A stretch of DNA of 24,705 nt from a virus, in the IMG/VR virus record IMGVR_UViG_3300018410_000045, positions 1 to 24,705 of that record; one strand, 5' to 3'. Below are positions 15,701 through 24,361 of this stretch, piece after piece. The notes under the pieces were generated by a model that was given only the letters and a program-made list of their open reading frames with translations, searched no databases and had not been told where the DNA came from. A program made the translations under genes and the position numbers. Position 1 is the first letter of the stretch. Each line of letters begins with the position of its first letter.

Positions 15701-15724
15701 ACATATTAAAATATCAACATATTA
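15701..15724 (+). promoter_or_regulatory. Direct repeat ACATATTA x2, possible operator of the downstream RHH gene
   Basis: ACATATTA occurs at 15701-15708 and 15717-15724, 16 bases apart start to start, and the second copy runs into the ATG at 15724. Ribbon-helix-helix proteins often bind such short repeats in their own leaders. Binding here is inference. Confidence 0.35.
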
Positions 15725-15951
15725 TGTCTATAAAAAATCACAAGTTAACTAAGAAACTTCAAGTTCTCTTAACAGAGGATGAAGTTACTCAAGTTAATAG
15801 GCTGATACTGATGGATGCGATTGAAAATGAGACACGTCCCATTTCCGTCAGTGCATTTATTAGAAGTCTCATACAAAAGGAATTAGAAAATAAAATTCCA
15901 GAACAAAGGTCAATAACTAAAGAACAAATTCGAAAAATCAATACTAAATGA
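15724..15951 (+). CDS. Small ribbon-helix-helix-like protein (75 aa)
   Basis: The 75-aa basic protein has the layout of an Arc/CopG-type ribbon-helix-helix fold: a short strand KLQVLLT (11-17), helix A starting EDEVTQVNRLIL, a turn, then helix B SVSAFIRSLIQKELE. Proteins of this fold dimerise and use the paired strands to bind DNA, sometimes RNA. It lies between the tube terminator and gp26 and its TGA overlaps the gp26 ATG (ATGA), so it is co-translated with tail genes. A phage transcription regulator acting on late genes or on itself is possible. The fold call is from pattern; the target is unknown. Confidence 0.7.
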   Translation: MSIKNHKLTKKLQVLLTEDEVTQVNRLILMDAIENETRPISVSAFIRSLIQKELENKIPEQRSITKEQIRKINTK

Positions 15952-16928
15952 GCGAAGAAATCAACAGAAATAGCGAAGACCTAGCGAGAGAGCTAGAAGC
16001 TAGAGAAAGACAAGCTTCAACTCCATCTGATCAAACAACATCAATGGAAGAAGCAATTAACAAACAGGGCTTAGGTTCTGTTAACATGGACAAGTTTAAA
16101 CCAGATTCAGCTACAGCACCTGATTTAGCACTAGGTTGGCATGAAATCCCAATGGACAGTTTACCATCTGAAGGTAGATTTTACCCAGTTGACATGACAA
16201 TTAAAATTAGAGCAGCAAAGGTTGCTGAAATTAGACACTTTTCAACAATTGATGAAAATAACCTACTAGATGTAGATGATAAACTAAATGCAATCGTAGA
16301 ATCATGTACAATGGTTAGCTCTAGAAGTGAAAGAGTATCATTCAAAGATATTTGTGAAGAGGATCGTTTTATCTTAATTCTATCAATTAGAGACTTAACA
16401 TTCCCAGAACCGGAAAATAGCTTGAAGGTTGATTGGGAAGATAGAAATGGTAAATCTCATGAGATTGAAATTAAGAGAGAATACTTTGATTACTTTAGAA
16501 TTCCTGAAGATATTGAAAAGTACTACGATGCTGAAGCTAGAGGTTATGTTATTAGAACAAGAACTTATGGCGAAATCTTTATGAAACCACCATCAATTGG
16601 TGTAATGCAAGAAATCACTAAGTATATTAAAGAGCGTAGAGACAAGGGACAGGAAATTGACCAGTCACTTATTCAAGTAGCTCCTTATGTTGCTACTGAT
16701 TGGAGAAGATTTAATCAGAAAAGATTATTTGAACTAGAAGTAGAGATGAACGGCTGGGACAACAAAAAGTACCTATTACTTTATAAGCTAGCAGAAAAGG
16801 TAAAAGTTGGTATTAAGCCAGAAATGAACTTAACAGTTGAAGGTGAGGAGGCTTCAATTCCAATCAACTTTCGCGACGGCATCAAGTCTCTTTTCATTGT
16901 TCAAGATATCGCTGGAGAACTTCTTTAA
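15948..16928 (+). CDS. 26: Baseplate hub protein, gp26/T4_baseplate family
   Basis: This 326-aa protein carries the family core from about residue 64: GWHEIPMDSLPSEGRFYPVD, then VDDKLNAIVESC (109-120) and DRFILILSIRDLTFP (139-153). T4 gp26 (208 aa) is needed to assemble the baseplate hub. The extra N-terminal about 60 residues are polar and probably disordered. The gene ends GGA-GAA-CTT-CTT-TAA, and the +1 frame continues as coding sequence for 72 codons beyond the stop (next entries). It starts within the stop of the RHH gene. The tape-measure candidate follows about 290 bases downstream. Confidence 0.78.
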   Translation: MSEEINRNSEDLARELEARERQASTPSDQTTSMEEAINKQGLGSVNMDKFKPDSATAPDLALGWHEIPMDSLPSEGRFYPVDMTIKIRAAKVAEIRHFSTIDENNLLDVDDKLNAIVESCTMVSSRSERVSFKDICEEDRFILILSIRDLTFPEPENSLKVDWEDRNGKSHEIEIKREYFDYFRIPEDIEKYYDAEARGYVIRTRTYGEIFMKPPSIGVMQEITKYIKERRDKGQEIDQSLIQVAPYVATDWRRFNQKRLFELEVEMNGWDNKKYLLLYKLAEKVKVGIKPEMNLTVEGEEASIPINFRDGIKSLFIVQDIAGELL

Positions 16929-16929
16929 G
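16914..16929 (+). other. Candidate programmed +1 frameshift site at the end of gp26
   Basis: The last sense codon and stop are CTT-TAA (16923-16928), the arrangement of the bacterial prfB shift site (CTT-TGA). GGAG lies a few bases upstream (16914-16917), as the internal Shine-Dalgarno does in prfB. Slipping from CTT to TTT places AAG (16927) in the A site and opens the +1 frame to 17142. Confidence 0.5.
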
Positions 16930-17145
16930 ATTAGATTCTGGGTGTATAAGCACCTACATATTCAGCCAAGCGAACTTAATAATATGGAATACTATGAGTA
17001 TCACTATATTGTCAAAGACCTTGCAGAATTTGTTAAGAAGGAAAACGAAGCGCAAAAAGGACAACAGGAACAAACAGGCGCAGCAATGGGCAACATGAAG
17101 GTACCAAATATAAAAGTACCGAAAATGAGCGTTCCGAAATTCTAA
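16927..17145 (+). CDS. Small protein in the +1 frame behind gp26 (frameshift extension or separate hub/tape-measure chaperone)
   Basis: Reading from the shift point gives KIRFWVYKHLHIQPSELNN, then MEYYEYHYIVKDLAEFVKKE, a Gln/Gly-rich linker and the end KVPNIKVPKMSVPKF. The compact helical beginning looks like real coding sequence before the first ATG at 16984. Possible separate starts are GTG at 16942 or ATG at 16984 (53 aa); a TTG far upstream at 16837 gives an implausible N-terminus. A +1 shift would give a gp26 fusion of about 398 aa. In many tailed phages the chaperone pair just before the tape measure is made by frameshifting (gpG/gpGT), and T4 has gp51 after gp26. The five-residue KVPxx repeats recur at the end of the 232-aa protein on the other side of the tape measure. 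Confidence 0.65.
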   Translation, partial: KIRFWVYKHLHIQPSELNNMEYYEYHYIVKDLAEFVKKENEAQKGQQEQTGAAMGNMKVPNIKVPKMSVPKF

Positions 17146-17221: not shown

Positions 17222-19777
17222 GTGACCGAAAAGCAATTTACAGCGATATTATCACCGGCTCAAAAATTAGCCAATGTTGCAACTAATATCGACGAAAAGG
17301 TAACTATGATGTATGAGCTTTCAGTAGAGAGCTTAAAACACGAGGAGACTCAAGTTGCTGAACTTAAACAACAGACTTCTATCCTTAAAGAAATCAAGGA
17401 CCTTTTAAAGGGTCAGAATAAGGTGATTAATCAGGGAGGGGCTAAAGGTAGTGGATCTTTTGCAGGCCTAGATAAATTAAATAAGGACACTGTTGGTATT
17501 GCAGTAGTTGCAATGGTAGGAATATCAGCAGCAATTGTTGCAAGTGCTGCAATGTTTACTCTTATTCCAACAGTTTCACCAGCTCAGTTATTAACTGCAC
17601 TTGCAATTTCGGTAGCATTTATACCAATGTCAATTGCATTTTCTAAGATTGCGAGTATTTTAGCAAGTGTAAAAGGAACAAAAGGAGCAACCTTACCAAG
17701 TGGATTAAGCTTAAGTGGCTCTGATAATTCTGGATTCATTCAATTAGCAGGAGTTGCTTTACTATCAATGGTCGGTATGTCATTTGCAGTCGCTATGTCT
17801 TCTTGGATCTTACAATTAGTTATGCCGGTTTCAATGGCACAGGTTGGTACTGCATTCTTTATTGGATTAGCAATGGTAGGACTTGCGTATGGATATGCTC
17901 AAGTCGTCAAGGCTCTTGCCGGTGTTAAAGAAAAAAGAACGGGTAAGGTAAACTCTGGGGACATATTCTCAATGATAGGTGGTGCACTAATTTCAATGGT
18001 CGGAATGGCTGTTGCAGTTACTATGTCATCTTGGATTATGCAATTAATTGCACCAATTTCAATGGCTCAAGCTGGAACGGCATTCTTTATTGGATTAGCA
18101 ATGGTTGGAATGGCATATGGATATGCCCAAGTCGTCAAAGCCCTTGCAAAGGTAAAAGACAAAAGGACGGGAAGAGTAAATACAGGAGACCTATTTTCAA
18201 TGGTTGGAGGAGCCCTACTTTCAATGGTAGGTATGGCAGCTGCTGTTACTATGTCATCTTGGATTATGCAGATGATTGTTCCAGTTTCAATAGATAAACT
18301 TGCAACTGCATTCGCAATTGGTATTGTAATGATTGGTGCCGCATTTGCATATAGTTTAATTGCTAAAGCTACTAAAAGATTAAAGATTAAAGATTTACTT
18401 ATGGCGGCAGCAGCAATTCCATTAATTGCAATTGGATTAACGGCAGCAGCATGGATCTTTACATTCTTACCAGATACATTTAAAGCGCCTCCAGTAGAAT
18501 GGGTTCTTAAGTCTGGATTAGCACTTGTTGTTTTTGGATTAGCATTCGTTGCAATGGCATATACTGTTGCTAAATTACCACTTAAAGATATGTTAATGGG
18601 TATTGTTGGTATGGCGGCAGTTGCTGTAGGTATTCTTGCAGTTGCATGGATCTTTAGTATTCTACCAGATACGTTTACTGAAGTACCAATGGGATGGGTA
18701 CTTGGATCGGTAGTTGCCCTTATTGGGTTTGGTGTAGTTGTGGGAATTATTGGTGCTATTATTATGGCAACAGGTGGTACTGGTCTTGCAGCAATTGCGT
18801 TAGGTGTTGTCGGAATGATTATAATTGCAGCTGGTATTCTTGCAGTAGCATGGATATTATCATATATACCTGCGGGTAAATTAGCAGATGTTGCAAAGGG
18901 GTTAACTGAAGCACTATTGGCTCCAGTAAATGGTATTGTTGACGTTCTTGCGCGTTTAAAAAATGAAATCGGTATTGAGAACCTATTACCTCTTGCGGGT
19001 GGTATCTTAGCAATTTCAGCATCTCTTATTGCACTTGCGGGTGCTACAGTAGGTGTTGCAGCGGCTGGTCTTGGAGCGGCAATAGCAGACACTGCAACTG
19101 CCTTCTTTGAAAAGATTTCGGGTAAAAAGACAAAGGGACCTTTAGAAATTTTAGAACTATTGATTAGTTATGGCCCTAGGCTTGAAACTCTTGCAGATGG
19201 CATGAAGCTTTTATCAAATTCTTTTTTATCAGTTTCTAAGTACACTAGTTTTGACAATATTAAAAGAATGGAAAAGGCAGCTAGGGCGCTTGTAATAACG
19301 AATGGAATGATGTCAACTGCGAATGGTTATACAGTAAAAGAATATTTTAGTAAGTTTCCTAGATTCTTGAATGATGTTGCTGAAGGATATAGTAATATCG
19401 TTGACGCTCAAAGTGGAATGGACCTTCAAGTACTTGATAAAACTACTGAAATGATTAAAGCACTTGCATATCTAAATGAATTTGGAGGTGATAATGCAAT
19501 GGAAAAACTTGGAGAATCATTAGTTAGTGCAGTTAAAGAGCTGTCAGCAATGATTAATAAGTTTGGAGGTAGTGTTGATGCTCAGACTGAAAATGGTGCT
19601 AAATCTTCAGGTGCTCTTGAAAAAGCAACGGGAGCTATTTCTGGCTTTGTTTCTAAATTTACAGGAGGTGGTGGTTCTTCGTCGACTCCTCAAATTTCTA
19701 ATTCGGATATGGGAGAAGTTGTCGATGCAATTGAAGAACTACAAAGAATAGTTAAGAGAAATAAAGGATTTGCATAA
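17222..19777 (+). CDS. Probable tape measure protein with tandem hydrophobic repeats
   Basis: This 851-aa protein starts with GTG; no better ATG is near, and the N-terminal helix (residues 1-65) reads well from it. Residues about 35-65 form a coiled coil. From about 90 to 630 there are seven or more hydrophobic units of 65-76 residues; units at 173-247 and 248-323 are nearly identical (MSSWIxQL, GTAFFIGLAMVG, YGYAQVVKALA, KRTGKVNSGD). The C-terminal third is amphipathic and helical, with a GGGGSSS linker near 815. Position behind the gp26 region, size, coiled coil and hydrophobic repeats fit a tape measure (T4 gp29 is 590 aa). At about 0.15 nm per residue it would predict a tail near 128 nm. 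A multi-spanning membrane protein is the alternative. Confidence 0.72.
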   Translation: MTEKQFTAILSPAQKLANVATNIDEKVTMMYELSVESLKHEETQVAELKQQTSILKEIKDLLKGQNKVINQGGAKGSGSFAGLDKLNKDTVGIAVVAMVGISAAIVASAAMFTLIPTVSPAQLLTALAISVAFIPMSIAFSKIASILASVKGTKGATLPSGLSLSGSDNSGFIQLAGVALLSMVGMSFAVAMSSWILQLVMPVSMAQVGTAFFIGLAMVGLAYGYAQVVKALAGVKEKRTGKVNSGDIFSMIGGALISMVGMAVAVTMSSWIMQLIAPISMAQAGTAFFIGLAMVGMAYGYAQVVKALAKVKDKRTGRVNTGDLFSMVGGALLSMVGMAAAVTMSSWIMQMIVPVSIDKLATAFAIGIVMIGAAFAYSLIAKATKRLKIKDLLMAAAAIPLIAIGLTAAAWIFTFLPDTFKAPPVEWVLKSGLALVVFGLAFVAMAYTVAKLPLKDMLMGIVGMAAVAVGILAVAWIFSILPDTFTEVPMGWVLGSVVALIGFGVVVGIIGAIIMATGGTGLAAIALGVVGMIIIAAGILAVAWILSYIPAGKLADVAKGLTEALLAPVNGIVDVLARLKNEIGIENLLPLAGGILAISASLIALAGATVGVAAAGLGAAIADTATAFFEKISGKKTKGPLEILELLISYGPRLETLADGMKLLSNSFLSVSKYTSFDNIKRMEKAARALVITNGMMSTANGYTVKEYFSKFPRFLNDVAEGYSNIVDAQSGMDLQVLDKTTEMIKALAYLNEFGGDNAMEKLGESLVSAVKELSAMINKFGGSVDAQTENGAKSSGALEKATGAISGFVSKFTGGGGSSSTPQISNSDMGEVVDAIEELQRIVKRNKGFA
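17738..18394 (+). repeat. Tandem repeat units in the tape measure gene
   Basis: Three clear units encode residues 173-247, 248-323 and 324-391, with periods of 225 and 228 bases. The first two share long nearly identical DNA stretches, for example CATTCTTTATTGGATTAGCA and AAGTCGTCAA, so this duplication is recent. More diverged units continue on both sides in protein sequence (WIFTFLPDTF and WIFSILPDTF at 411-420 and 476-485). Confidence 0.75.
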
Positions 19778-23174: not shown

Positions 23175-23505
23175 TGTATTAGAAATCATCAAAGACCAAG
23201 AGGAAGCACGCTATATGACTAGCGGAACCCATCTACAAGACTACATCAATGGAGTAACTTATGCTCAATTGGTAAAAGCATTCGGACAGCCACTGTATGG
23301 TCCTGAGGATAGCGGAGATGGCAAAGTACAATTTGAATGGGTATTTAAACATAACGGAAACGTGTTCACCCTGTATGACTGGAAGACCTACGATATGGAG
23401 TACACAATCAATGAGTTGACCCGTTGGAATATTGGCGGAACAATGTACGCTGGTTATTTTGTTGAAGATATTATGAACATGATAAACGAGACTGTAAATG
23501 CCTGA
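23167..23505 (+). CDS. Hypothetical phage protein (112 aa)
   Basis: The 112-aa protein reads VTYAQLVKAFGQPLYGPED, then VQFEWVFKHNGNVFTLYDWK and TRWNIGG. This FGxP / W-dG-v-tiYDwK / W-IGG layout is familiar from small uncharacterised phage proteins; I cannot assign a function. It overlaps the neighbours by 8 bases on each side, so the operon is tightly coupled. Confidence 0.78.
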   Translation: MDNVLEIIKDQEEARYMTSGTHLQDYINGVTYAQLVKAFGQPLYGPEDSGDGKVQFEWVFKHNGNVFTLYDWKTYDMEYTINELTRWNIGGTMYAGYFVEDIMNMINETVNA

Positions 23506-24361
23506 ATTAGCAGAACTTAAACTAACCGCTGATTATATTAATAAGGCGTCAAAAGGTCGTACTTATACTGGTATTAAAAAGAATCCAGCACATAAGGGCA
23601 AAGTATTTGAGGTACCATACAACGAGTTTAGTATTAGTGCAAAGAGTCGTGGAAAGGAGATGGTTCTCTATATTCATGACTTATTGACTGAAAATACTTT
23701 ACCAGTTCGATGGACAATGGGAATGGCCGGTCACTTTAGGCTTTCGAAAACTGGAGAGGAGAATAAACATGCACATATGATGTTTACATCAACTGATGGT
23801 TATACCTTGAGTTTTGTTGATGTACGTCGCTTTGGTAAATGGAAGCCAGGTTTTGAATGGTCAGATAATCGAGGACCTGACCCAACATCTGAAGAGGAAG
23901 CATTTAAACAAAACATTTACGATAACTTACACAAGCGTGAATTTGACAAGCCACTTAATGAGGTACTAATGAATCAAAAGTACTTTAATGGGATCGGCAA
24001 TTATTTACGCGCTGAAATTATTTATCGAATGGAAGACCTATATCCATTCACCGATACCAGAACAGTGATTGAGAATCGAGGAGATGAGTTGTTTATGTTA
24101 TGTAAAGCAGTTCCAGACCTAGCCTATGTCATGGGTGGTGGAGAAATCAAGGACTGGAAGAATCCATTTAAGAATGAGACTGACTACATGAAAACACGTT
24201 CCGACTTCTTTTTATGCTACGGAAATGAAACAATGTCGCAAGTTGTGGATAAAACAGGTAGAAGATTTTGGTATCATCCTAAATGGGACAATATTGATAT
24301 GAACTCTGAATGGGACCATTATTCAGGATTACCAAACCCTAAAGCATACGAAAACATATGA
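23498..24361 (+). CDS. Fpg/Nei-family DNA glycosylase/AP lyase, NEIL1-like
   Basis: This 287-aa enzyme removes oxidised bases and cleaves the abasic site. Catalytic P2 and E3 are present (MPELAE), K53 in SRGKE matches the NEIL1 catalytic-site lysine, and the H2TH segment is NQKYFNGIGNYLRAEIIYR (159-177). Instead of the bacterial four-Cys zinc finger, the C-terminus has CYGNETMSQVVDKTGRRFWY (240-259), the zincless finger known from NEIL1, with an Arg in GRR as the DNA-binding residue. FVDVRRFGKW and FDKPLNEVLMNQKYFNGIG are also close to animal NEIL1 as I remember it. Its stop overlaps the guanylate kinase start. It may repair packaged or replicating phage DNA, or act on a modified base. Confidence 0.9.
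   Translation: MPELAELKLTADYINKASKGRTYTGIKKNPAHKGKVFEVPYNEFSISAKSRGKEMVLYIHDLLTENTLPVRWTMGMAGHFRLSKTGEENKHAHMMFTSTDGYTLSFVDVRRFGKWKPGFEWSDNRGPDPTSEEEAFKQNIYDNLHKREFDKPLNEVLMNQKYFNGIGNYLRAEIIYRMEDLYPFTDTRTVIENRGDELFMLCKAVPDLAYVMGGGEIKDWKNPFKNETDYMKTRSDFFLCYGNETMSQVVDKTGRRFWYHPKWDNIDMNSEWDHYSGLPNPKAYENI

Follow-up and report, generated by a model that had tools for sequence, protein, structure and literature searches.

A probable programmed +1 frameshift at a UUU_C site in a T4 gp26-like tail assembly chaperone gene

Introduction

The stretch studied here (the window) is a DNA of 24,705 nucleotides (nt) from a virus of bacteria, positions 1 to 24,705 of the IMG/VR record IMGVR_UViG_3300018410_000045. 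It carries an open reading frame (ORF) at 15948-16928, encoding a 326-residue protein of the T4 gp26 type, and a second ORF in the +1 frame that runs to 17145. How do ribosomes enter this second frame? The original prediction placed a +1 slip at the very end of the gene, on the model of the prfB (RF2) gene. The elements on which it relied are indeed in the sequence: GGAG (16914-16917), CTT CTT TAA (16920-16928) and an open +1 frame (16927-17145, reading KIRFWVYKHLHIQPSELNNMEYYEYHY). As detailed below, comparison of related loci indicates that the +1 frame is already under selection well before this point. A programmed +1 frameshift in this gp26-like tail chaperone is well supported by the comparison, and we put at about 0.79 the probability that the gene yields a two-form tail assembly chaperone (TAC) through a +1 shift at UUU_CGC (16869) and not at CTT-TAA. 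The parts of the locus are the following.

15948..16928, + strand: TAC-N, the short chaperone form, T4 gp26/gp51-like, 326 aa; 0-frame ORF, with relatives in PF12322 and Foldseek matches
16845..16851, + strand: GAGGAGG, Shine-Dalgarno-like, a candidate stimulator with a putative function, 17 nt before TTT
16869..16874, + strand: proposed +1 shift site UUU_CGC, at which tRNA-Phe would move from UUU to UUC with the rare CGC in the A site
16870..17145, + strand: predicted C-terminal helical domain of TAC-NC (398 aa), 90 aa after the shift; stop codon at 17143-17145
16873..16928, + strand: dual-coding segment (0 and +1 frames), with 19 third-position changes in 18 codons
16914..16928, + strand: GGAGAACTTCTTTAA, the site of the original prediction and the end of the 0-frame ORF within the overlap

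Signed positions in the text are given in nt relative to the 0-frame stop.

Results

The end of the gene is conserved in two frames

A first scan of IMG/VR viral contigs with the 326-aa protein returned 47 loci, 5 of them partial and 42 reaching the gene end. All but one of these 42 (41/42) end in CTT TAA and have the same +1 ORF behind; the sole exception, L009, stops early, and in L013 and L041 the +1 ORF runs into the contig end. In a second scan, restricted to the best 80 of 483 relatives, 51 unique junctions were analysed, and CTT TAA was found together with the same +1 domain in 51/51. Judged by these counts, the pairing of CTT TAA with a shared +1 ORF is far beyond chance.

We then looked at codon usage upstream of the stop. 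In 27 sequences with 84 near-invariant columns, all five columns that use a single codon were located in the last 19 codons. In these codons the third positions of the 0 frame are nearly fixed, the first positions, which are silent in +1, vary, and the +1 peptide LFSLFKISLENFFK is kept. Changes were counted by parsimony (Fitch) on trees made from the rest of the gene, for 26 sequences from the window clade plus LR756500 (set 1) and for 34 sequences of the distant LR756502 clade (set 2). In set 1, third-position changes per codon amounted to 6.15 in the gene body, 5.89 just before TTT and 1.06 after it; the corresponding values in set 2 were 6.74, 4.65 and 0.85. The boundary was sharp. The codons at -66 and -63 showed 8 and 3 third-position changes in set 1, and the codon before TTT showed 10 in set 2, while TTT and the next base showed none in either set. 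Sliding windows outside the last 40 codons contained at least 89 (set 1) and at least 91 (set 2) changes, compared with 19 and 17 in the overlap.

The ratio of first- to third-position changes was also shifted. For the whole overlap it was 21:19 in set 1 (body 572:1402, p=0.0024) and 26:17 in set 2 (body 455:1523, p=2.3e-7). For an inner part of the overlap, whose bounds were chosen after the whole-overlap data had been seen, the ratios were 19:6 (p=1.9e-6) and 15:11 (p=1.6e-4), respectively. With the same inner bounds, a further 24 sequences, picked for having TTT_C and including one (L139) that repeats L043, gave 26:5 (compare with 2.91:5.73 per codon; p=1.6e-8). Altogether, these data argue that reading in +1 sets in at about the TTT codon, some 55 nt before the 0-frame stop (-57). 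Selection on the +1 protein from about -57 to the stop means that this frame must be entered before CTT-TAA; the original prediction had missed this upstream conservation, which moves the proposed entry point to about 16869.

A UUU_C site stands where the second frame begins

In both sets the base after TTT is C without exception (TTT and next C, 26/26 in set 1 and 34/34 in set 2), meaning that a UUU_C like that of influenza PA-X is conserved where +1 coding begins. In the window clade this C is kept whichever amino acid follows (Arg, Pro or Gln), and 23 of the 26 rows of set 1 read TTT CGC or TTT CGT. Relatives were also sought in a phage collection. The 31 records found there come from Prevotella Lak phages, Tenacibaculum pT24, PTm1 and PTm5, Sphingomonas PAU, Chryseobacterium MA9V-1 and MA9V-2, Flavobacterium MaF61 and huge uncultured phages (462-735 kb); 14 regions from them were examined. 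The +1 C part is present in these 14 regions, hardly recognisable in LR756504; that of Lak-B1 (L050:4302-4400) holds a stop and is open only under code 15 (TAG = Gln). Over 18 loci, four near-duplicate pairs included, TTT_C was in frame within the open +1 window in 17, displaced in four. The site reads TTT CCC in PAU, pT24, LR756501 and the LR756502 clade, TTT CAA in Lak-A1/B1 and LR756500, TTT CTC in L067 and TTT CGA in MaF61.

The codon that would occupy the A site is rare: CGC accounts for 19 of the 7399 codons of the window, and CCC, the site codon in 34/34 sequences of the LR756502 clade, occurs 17 times in 16 N genes there. Among the 25 window genes listed, TTT_CGN is found in frame only at this site. 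All 10 in-frame TTT_CGN in a clade set of 152 ORFs were again this site, in N genes missed by the filter, and one TTT_CGN was counted in the LR756502-clade set. TTT_C as a whole is under-used in frame, with 7 occurrences versus 19.7 (standard deviation, sd, 3.0) in the window, 55 versus 110.6 (sd 7.8) in the clade loci and 41 versus 70.4 (sd 6.0) in the LR756502-clade loci. A passage of PMC5009743 singles out UUU_Ynn as particularly liable to slip by +1 in bacteria, and UUU_C is given in PMC3498833 as the PA-X shift site of influenza.

In the model that we propose, most ribosomes would translate 15948-16928 to give the short form of 326 aa. A smaller share would pause with tRNA-Phe on UUU (16869-16871) when the rare CGC comes next, move ahead by one base so that the tRNA pairs with UUC, and continue in +1 as far as 17145; the result would be a 398-aa form whose last 90 residues would be the helical domain. 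By analogy with gpG/gpGT of lambda, the role of the short form may be to coat the tape measure, and that of the long form to bring in the tail tube subunits. We infer the slip itself, its rate, the roles of CGC and GAGGAGG and this division of labour.

A candidate for a stimulator is the motif GAG GAG GNC located 17 nt before TTT; GAGGAGG occurs once in the window. The third position of its GAG is kept (25/25 Glu codons at -81 in set 1, 32/32 and 34/34 in the LR756502 clade), GAG being about a third of Glu codons. By eye, GAGG with the 17-nt spacing is also seen in L043, LR756500, PAU, Lak-A1/B1 and LR756501. In pT24 and L042 the motif stands 14 and 20 nt, respectively, before TTT, whereas L067, MaF61, MA9V and PTm lack it. 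The likeness to prfB lies in the +1 direction and in a Shine-Dalgarno-like sequence upstream; the spacer in prfB is shorter than the 17 nt here. Because of this difference, and since GGAG precedes the start of only 1 of the 25 window genes, any role of GAGGAGG is a guess.

Some observations weigh against a shift at UUU_C

The most serious comes from the second scan, where TTT_C was present in 33 of the 51 unique junctions; the 18 others have TTC CCA instead, keep the +1 domain and form one subclade by shared sequence. In this TTC subclade the onset of constraint lies further upstream, around -69 to -66, at an invariant CCT that has C before it and CT after it (C_CCT_C), and the position test on the subclade alone was not significant (p=0.079). 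Its earlier onset and its lack of TTT_C imply that its shift site must differ. The site has perhaps moved to a proline codon, possibly CCU_C at -66; alternatively, translation may start at GTG -50, present in 18/18. Elsewhere, TTT_C is displaced in MA9V (TTT CTA at -36) and PTm (TTT CAA at -75), and none was found in LR756504. A coarser test, in which distinct variants were counted, found no significant difference between the frames (p=0.22 and 0.26), folding of 8 sequences gave no consistent 3' RNA structure (z -1.96 to 1.63), and a profile of the C domain had no significant match to T4-like gp51. Part of the TTT_C under-use may be ordinary codon-pair bias, and a small T4 segment shows a weak under-use as well (7 versus 10.2, sd 1.7).

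Other ways of reading the C domain

Could the C domain be a separate protein, made from a +1 ORF that overlaps the gp26-type gene and has its start within it? Possible starts exist. The original prediction saw no good start before ATG 16984; this holds for ATG, but the +1 frame of the window has TTG at -89 and -29 and GTG at -83, as well as GTG at +16. Furthermore, GTG -50 is invariant in the TTC subclade, an ATG stands at -26 in every row of the LR756502 clade that reaches the stop, the scarcity of GGAG before window genes makes starts without a Shine-Dalgarno sequence normal here, and a citing passage in PMC10885494 says that some T4-like phages use separate genes. However, no +1 start position is common to all relatives, and in LR756500 and LR756501, where the +1 frame has stops at -62 and -68, there is no ATG, GTG or TTG from there to +27 and about +80, respectively. 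The constraint also begins upstream of the -26, -29 and -50 starts: in the LR756502 clade the +1 peptide ahead of the -26 ATG is conserved too. Where an ATG lies further out, at -83 in some relatives, third positions are still free. We thus regard separate initiation as unlikely. The constant +1 ATG at -26, inside the overlap of the LR756502 clade (L058, L068-L131), may add a free C-domain product.

A prfB-like slip on CTT before TAA (16923-16928), stimulated by GGAG, is contradicted by the codon-position analysis. CTT TAA and the +1 frame are conserved in both scans; CTT TAA is also found in 26/26 unique junctions, although CTT makes up only 21.9% of 557 Leu codons. The GGAG belongs to a GGA GAA present in 23 of these 26, so it is real in the window and not universal, LR756500 having GAC GAA. 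CTT stands before the stop, as CTT TAA, in LR756500, alone among the 14 regions, and in L067, a Lak relative from another scan. It is missing, with the +1 C part retained, in PAU, pT24, PTm, MA9V, MaF61, Lak-A1/B1 and LR756501/LR756502. A slip at CTT-TAA would leave the conserved upstream stretch untranslated in +1, and it would not account for the near absence of third-position changes, or for the conserved +1 protein, between -57 and the stop. CTT and TAA are demanded by the dual coding, in which Leu-Leu-stop in one frame overlies Phe-Phe-Lys in the other. A slip of this kind is, in our estimation, very improbable.

A shift at some other point of the overlap (for example on CUU_U at -36, or by -2) or at lineage-specific sites would fit the CTT TTC found at -36 in many sequences and the different site that the TTC subclade must use, but it is hardly credible as the general explanation, since the -36 codon is CTT in only 16 of 26 rows of the window clade (ATT, TTA or CTA in the others), ATT or GTT stands at the matching position (-42) in the LR756502 clade, and in both clades the constraint is already strong from TTT_C on. 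Taken together, the comparison shows that the overlap codes in two frames from TTT_C on, that TTT_C is conserved in the analysed sets and that the relatives have no start codon in common.

The two frames probably encode halves of one chaperone

T4 gp26 and gp51 are both members of PF12322 (T4_baseplate). The window protein scores 14.8 bits against this family, below the cut-off of 24.5, and its relatives in PAU and LR756500 score 33.9 and 29.9; the identity between the window protein and that of LR756500 is 44%, and 6 of 21 relatives match PF12322 at E up to 0.1. A Foldseek search of predicted viral structures linked the N part to T4-like baseplate hub assembly proteins; a fold search of the N model against the PDB gave nothing convincing (best E 1.0). 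The C part was modelled, with modest confidence (pLDDT 70), as helices, the first of which (residues 2-28) spans the 0-frame stop. Its fold search returned weak matches only, the best (E 0.016) being a 73-aa pT24 protein that is probably pT24's own C ORF. No significant match came out of profile-profile comparisons, whether against T4 gp26, against gp51 or against an alignment of seven gp51 sequences.

Paralogues were counted in the records of 10 relatives, the window record itself being only 24.7 kb. Nine of the ten have one match to the chaperone family, hence no second full-length paralogue, as in the T4-type two-gene pair, was found in them. LR745206 has a second, weak match (L219:1702-2472, E 1.1e-6), surrounded by other kinds of ORFs, one of them methyltransferase-like by eye. 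The locus has two overlapping ORFs before a tape measure gene (identified by position only), the second without a start shared by all relatives. We consider, on the strength of the sequence comparison, that the 0-frame and +1-frame ORFs together encode a single tail assembly chaperone, each contributing one half. The original prediction is supported in that a +1 shift would join a gp26-type protein to the downstream frame ahead of the presumed tape measure gene; the downstream piece, which it took for a second chaperone, would instead be the C-terminal half of the same one.

Neighbouring genes

The gene order in the window is sheath, tube, 75-aa ORF, N, C and 851-aa ORF, the last being:

17222..19777, + strand: 851-aa ORF with a GTG start, next downstream; tape measure candidate by position only

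This ORF had no Pfam match and no convincing PHROG match. The 75-aa ORF (15724-15951), for which no convincing family was found, overlaps the chaperone gene start with its 3' end (ATGA). Further away, the product of ORF 23498-24361 starts with MPEL, which recalls formamidopyrimidine-DNA glycosylases, and matches a PHROG of unknown function.

Discussion

The arrangement resembles that of lambda gpG/gpGT in that the gene stands just before the tape measure (here presumed), is predicted to give a short and a C-terminally extended form, and shifts near its 3' end. It differs in that lambda shifts by -1, according to a passage of PMC5009743, whereas here a +1 shift at UUU_C would act on a T4_baseplate-like protein. 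With T4 gp26/gp51 it probably shares the family at the N-terminal domain, as seen from relatives above the cut-off and from fold matches; however, T4 encodes both proteins as separate genes. The influenza PA-X site, UUU_CGU as given in part of PMC3498833, has the same P-site UUU, next base C and CGN in the A site; here the ribosomes are bacterial, the gene is a tail gene, a Shine-Dalgarno-like element may act upstream and CGN is not used in all lineages. Other +1 shifts mentioned in PMC5009743 are those of the tail shaft gene of the Listeria phages PSA/A118/A500, at a CCC_UGA site, and of the chaperone gene of HSTV-2, a haloarchaeal virus with an archaeal host.

The same text states that chaperone frameshifting is widely conserved in long-tailed phages except T4, and for T4-like phages a citing text attributes a mechanism other than frameshifting to a 2022 paper. 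In the literature searched, mostly without subscription papers, we recognised no report of this UUU_C chaperone site. As T4 has separate genes, gp26/gp51-family members using a +1 shift at a sense codon appear to be a new form of the known chaperone frameshift. More tentatively, the UUU_C +1 shift may be ancestral in the gp26/gp51 family and kept in phages up to 735 kb, a duplication having replaced it in T4, and the conserved GAGGAGG 17 nt upstream may act on the ribosome during elongation, in hosts where such sequences seldom serve to start translation; we hold this to be possible rather than probable.

In the relatives, the C half is annotated as short separate genes whose starts conflict even between PTm1 and PTm5 (L057:4408, L062:4330; L053:4510; L054:4417). 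These conflicts are likely annotation errors caused by the frameshift, and the present finding would correct the annotation of the C half as a separate short gene. It would also offer a natural and deeply conserved bacterial UUU_C site for study.
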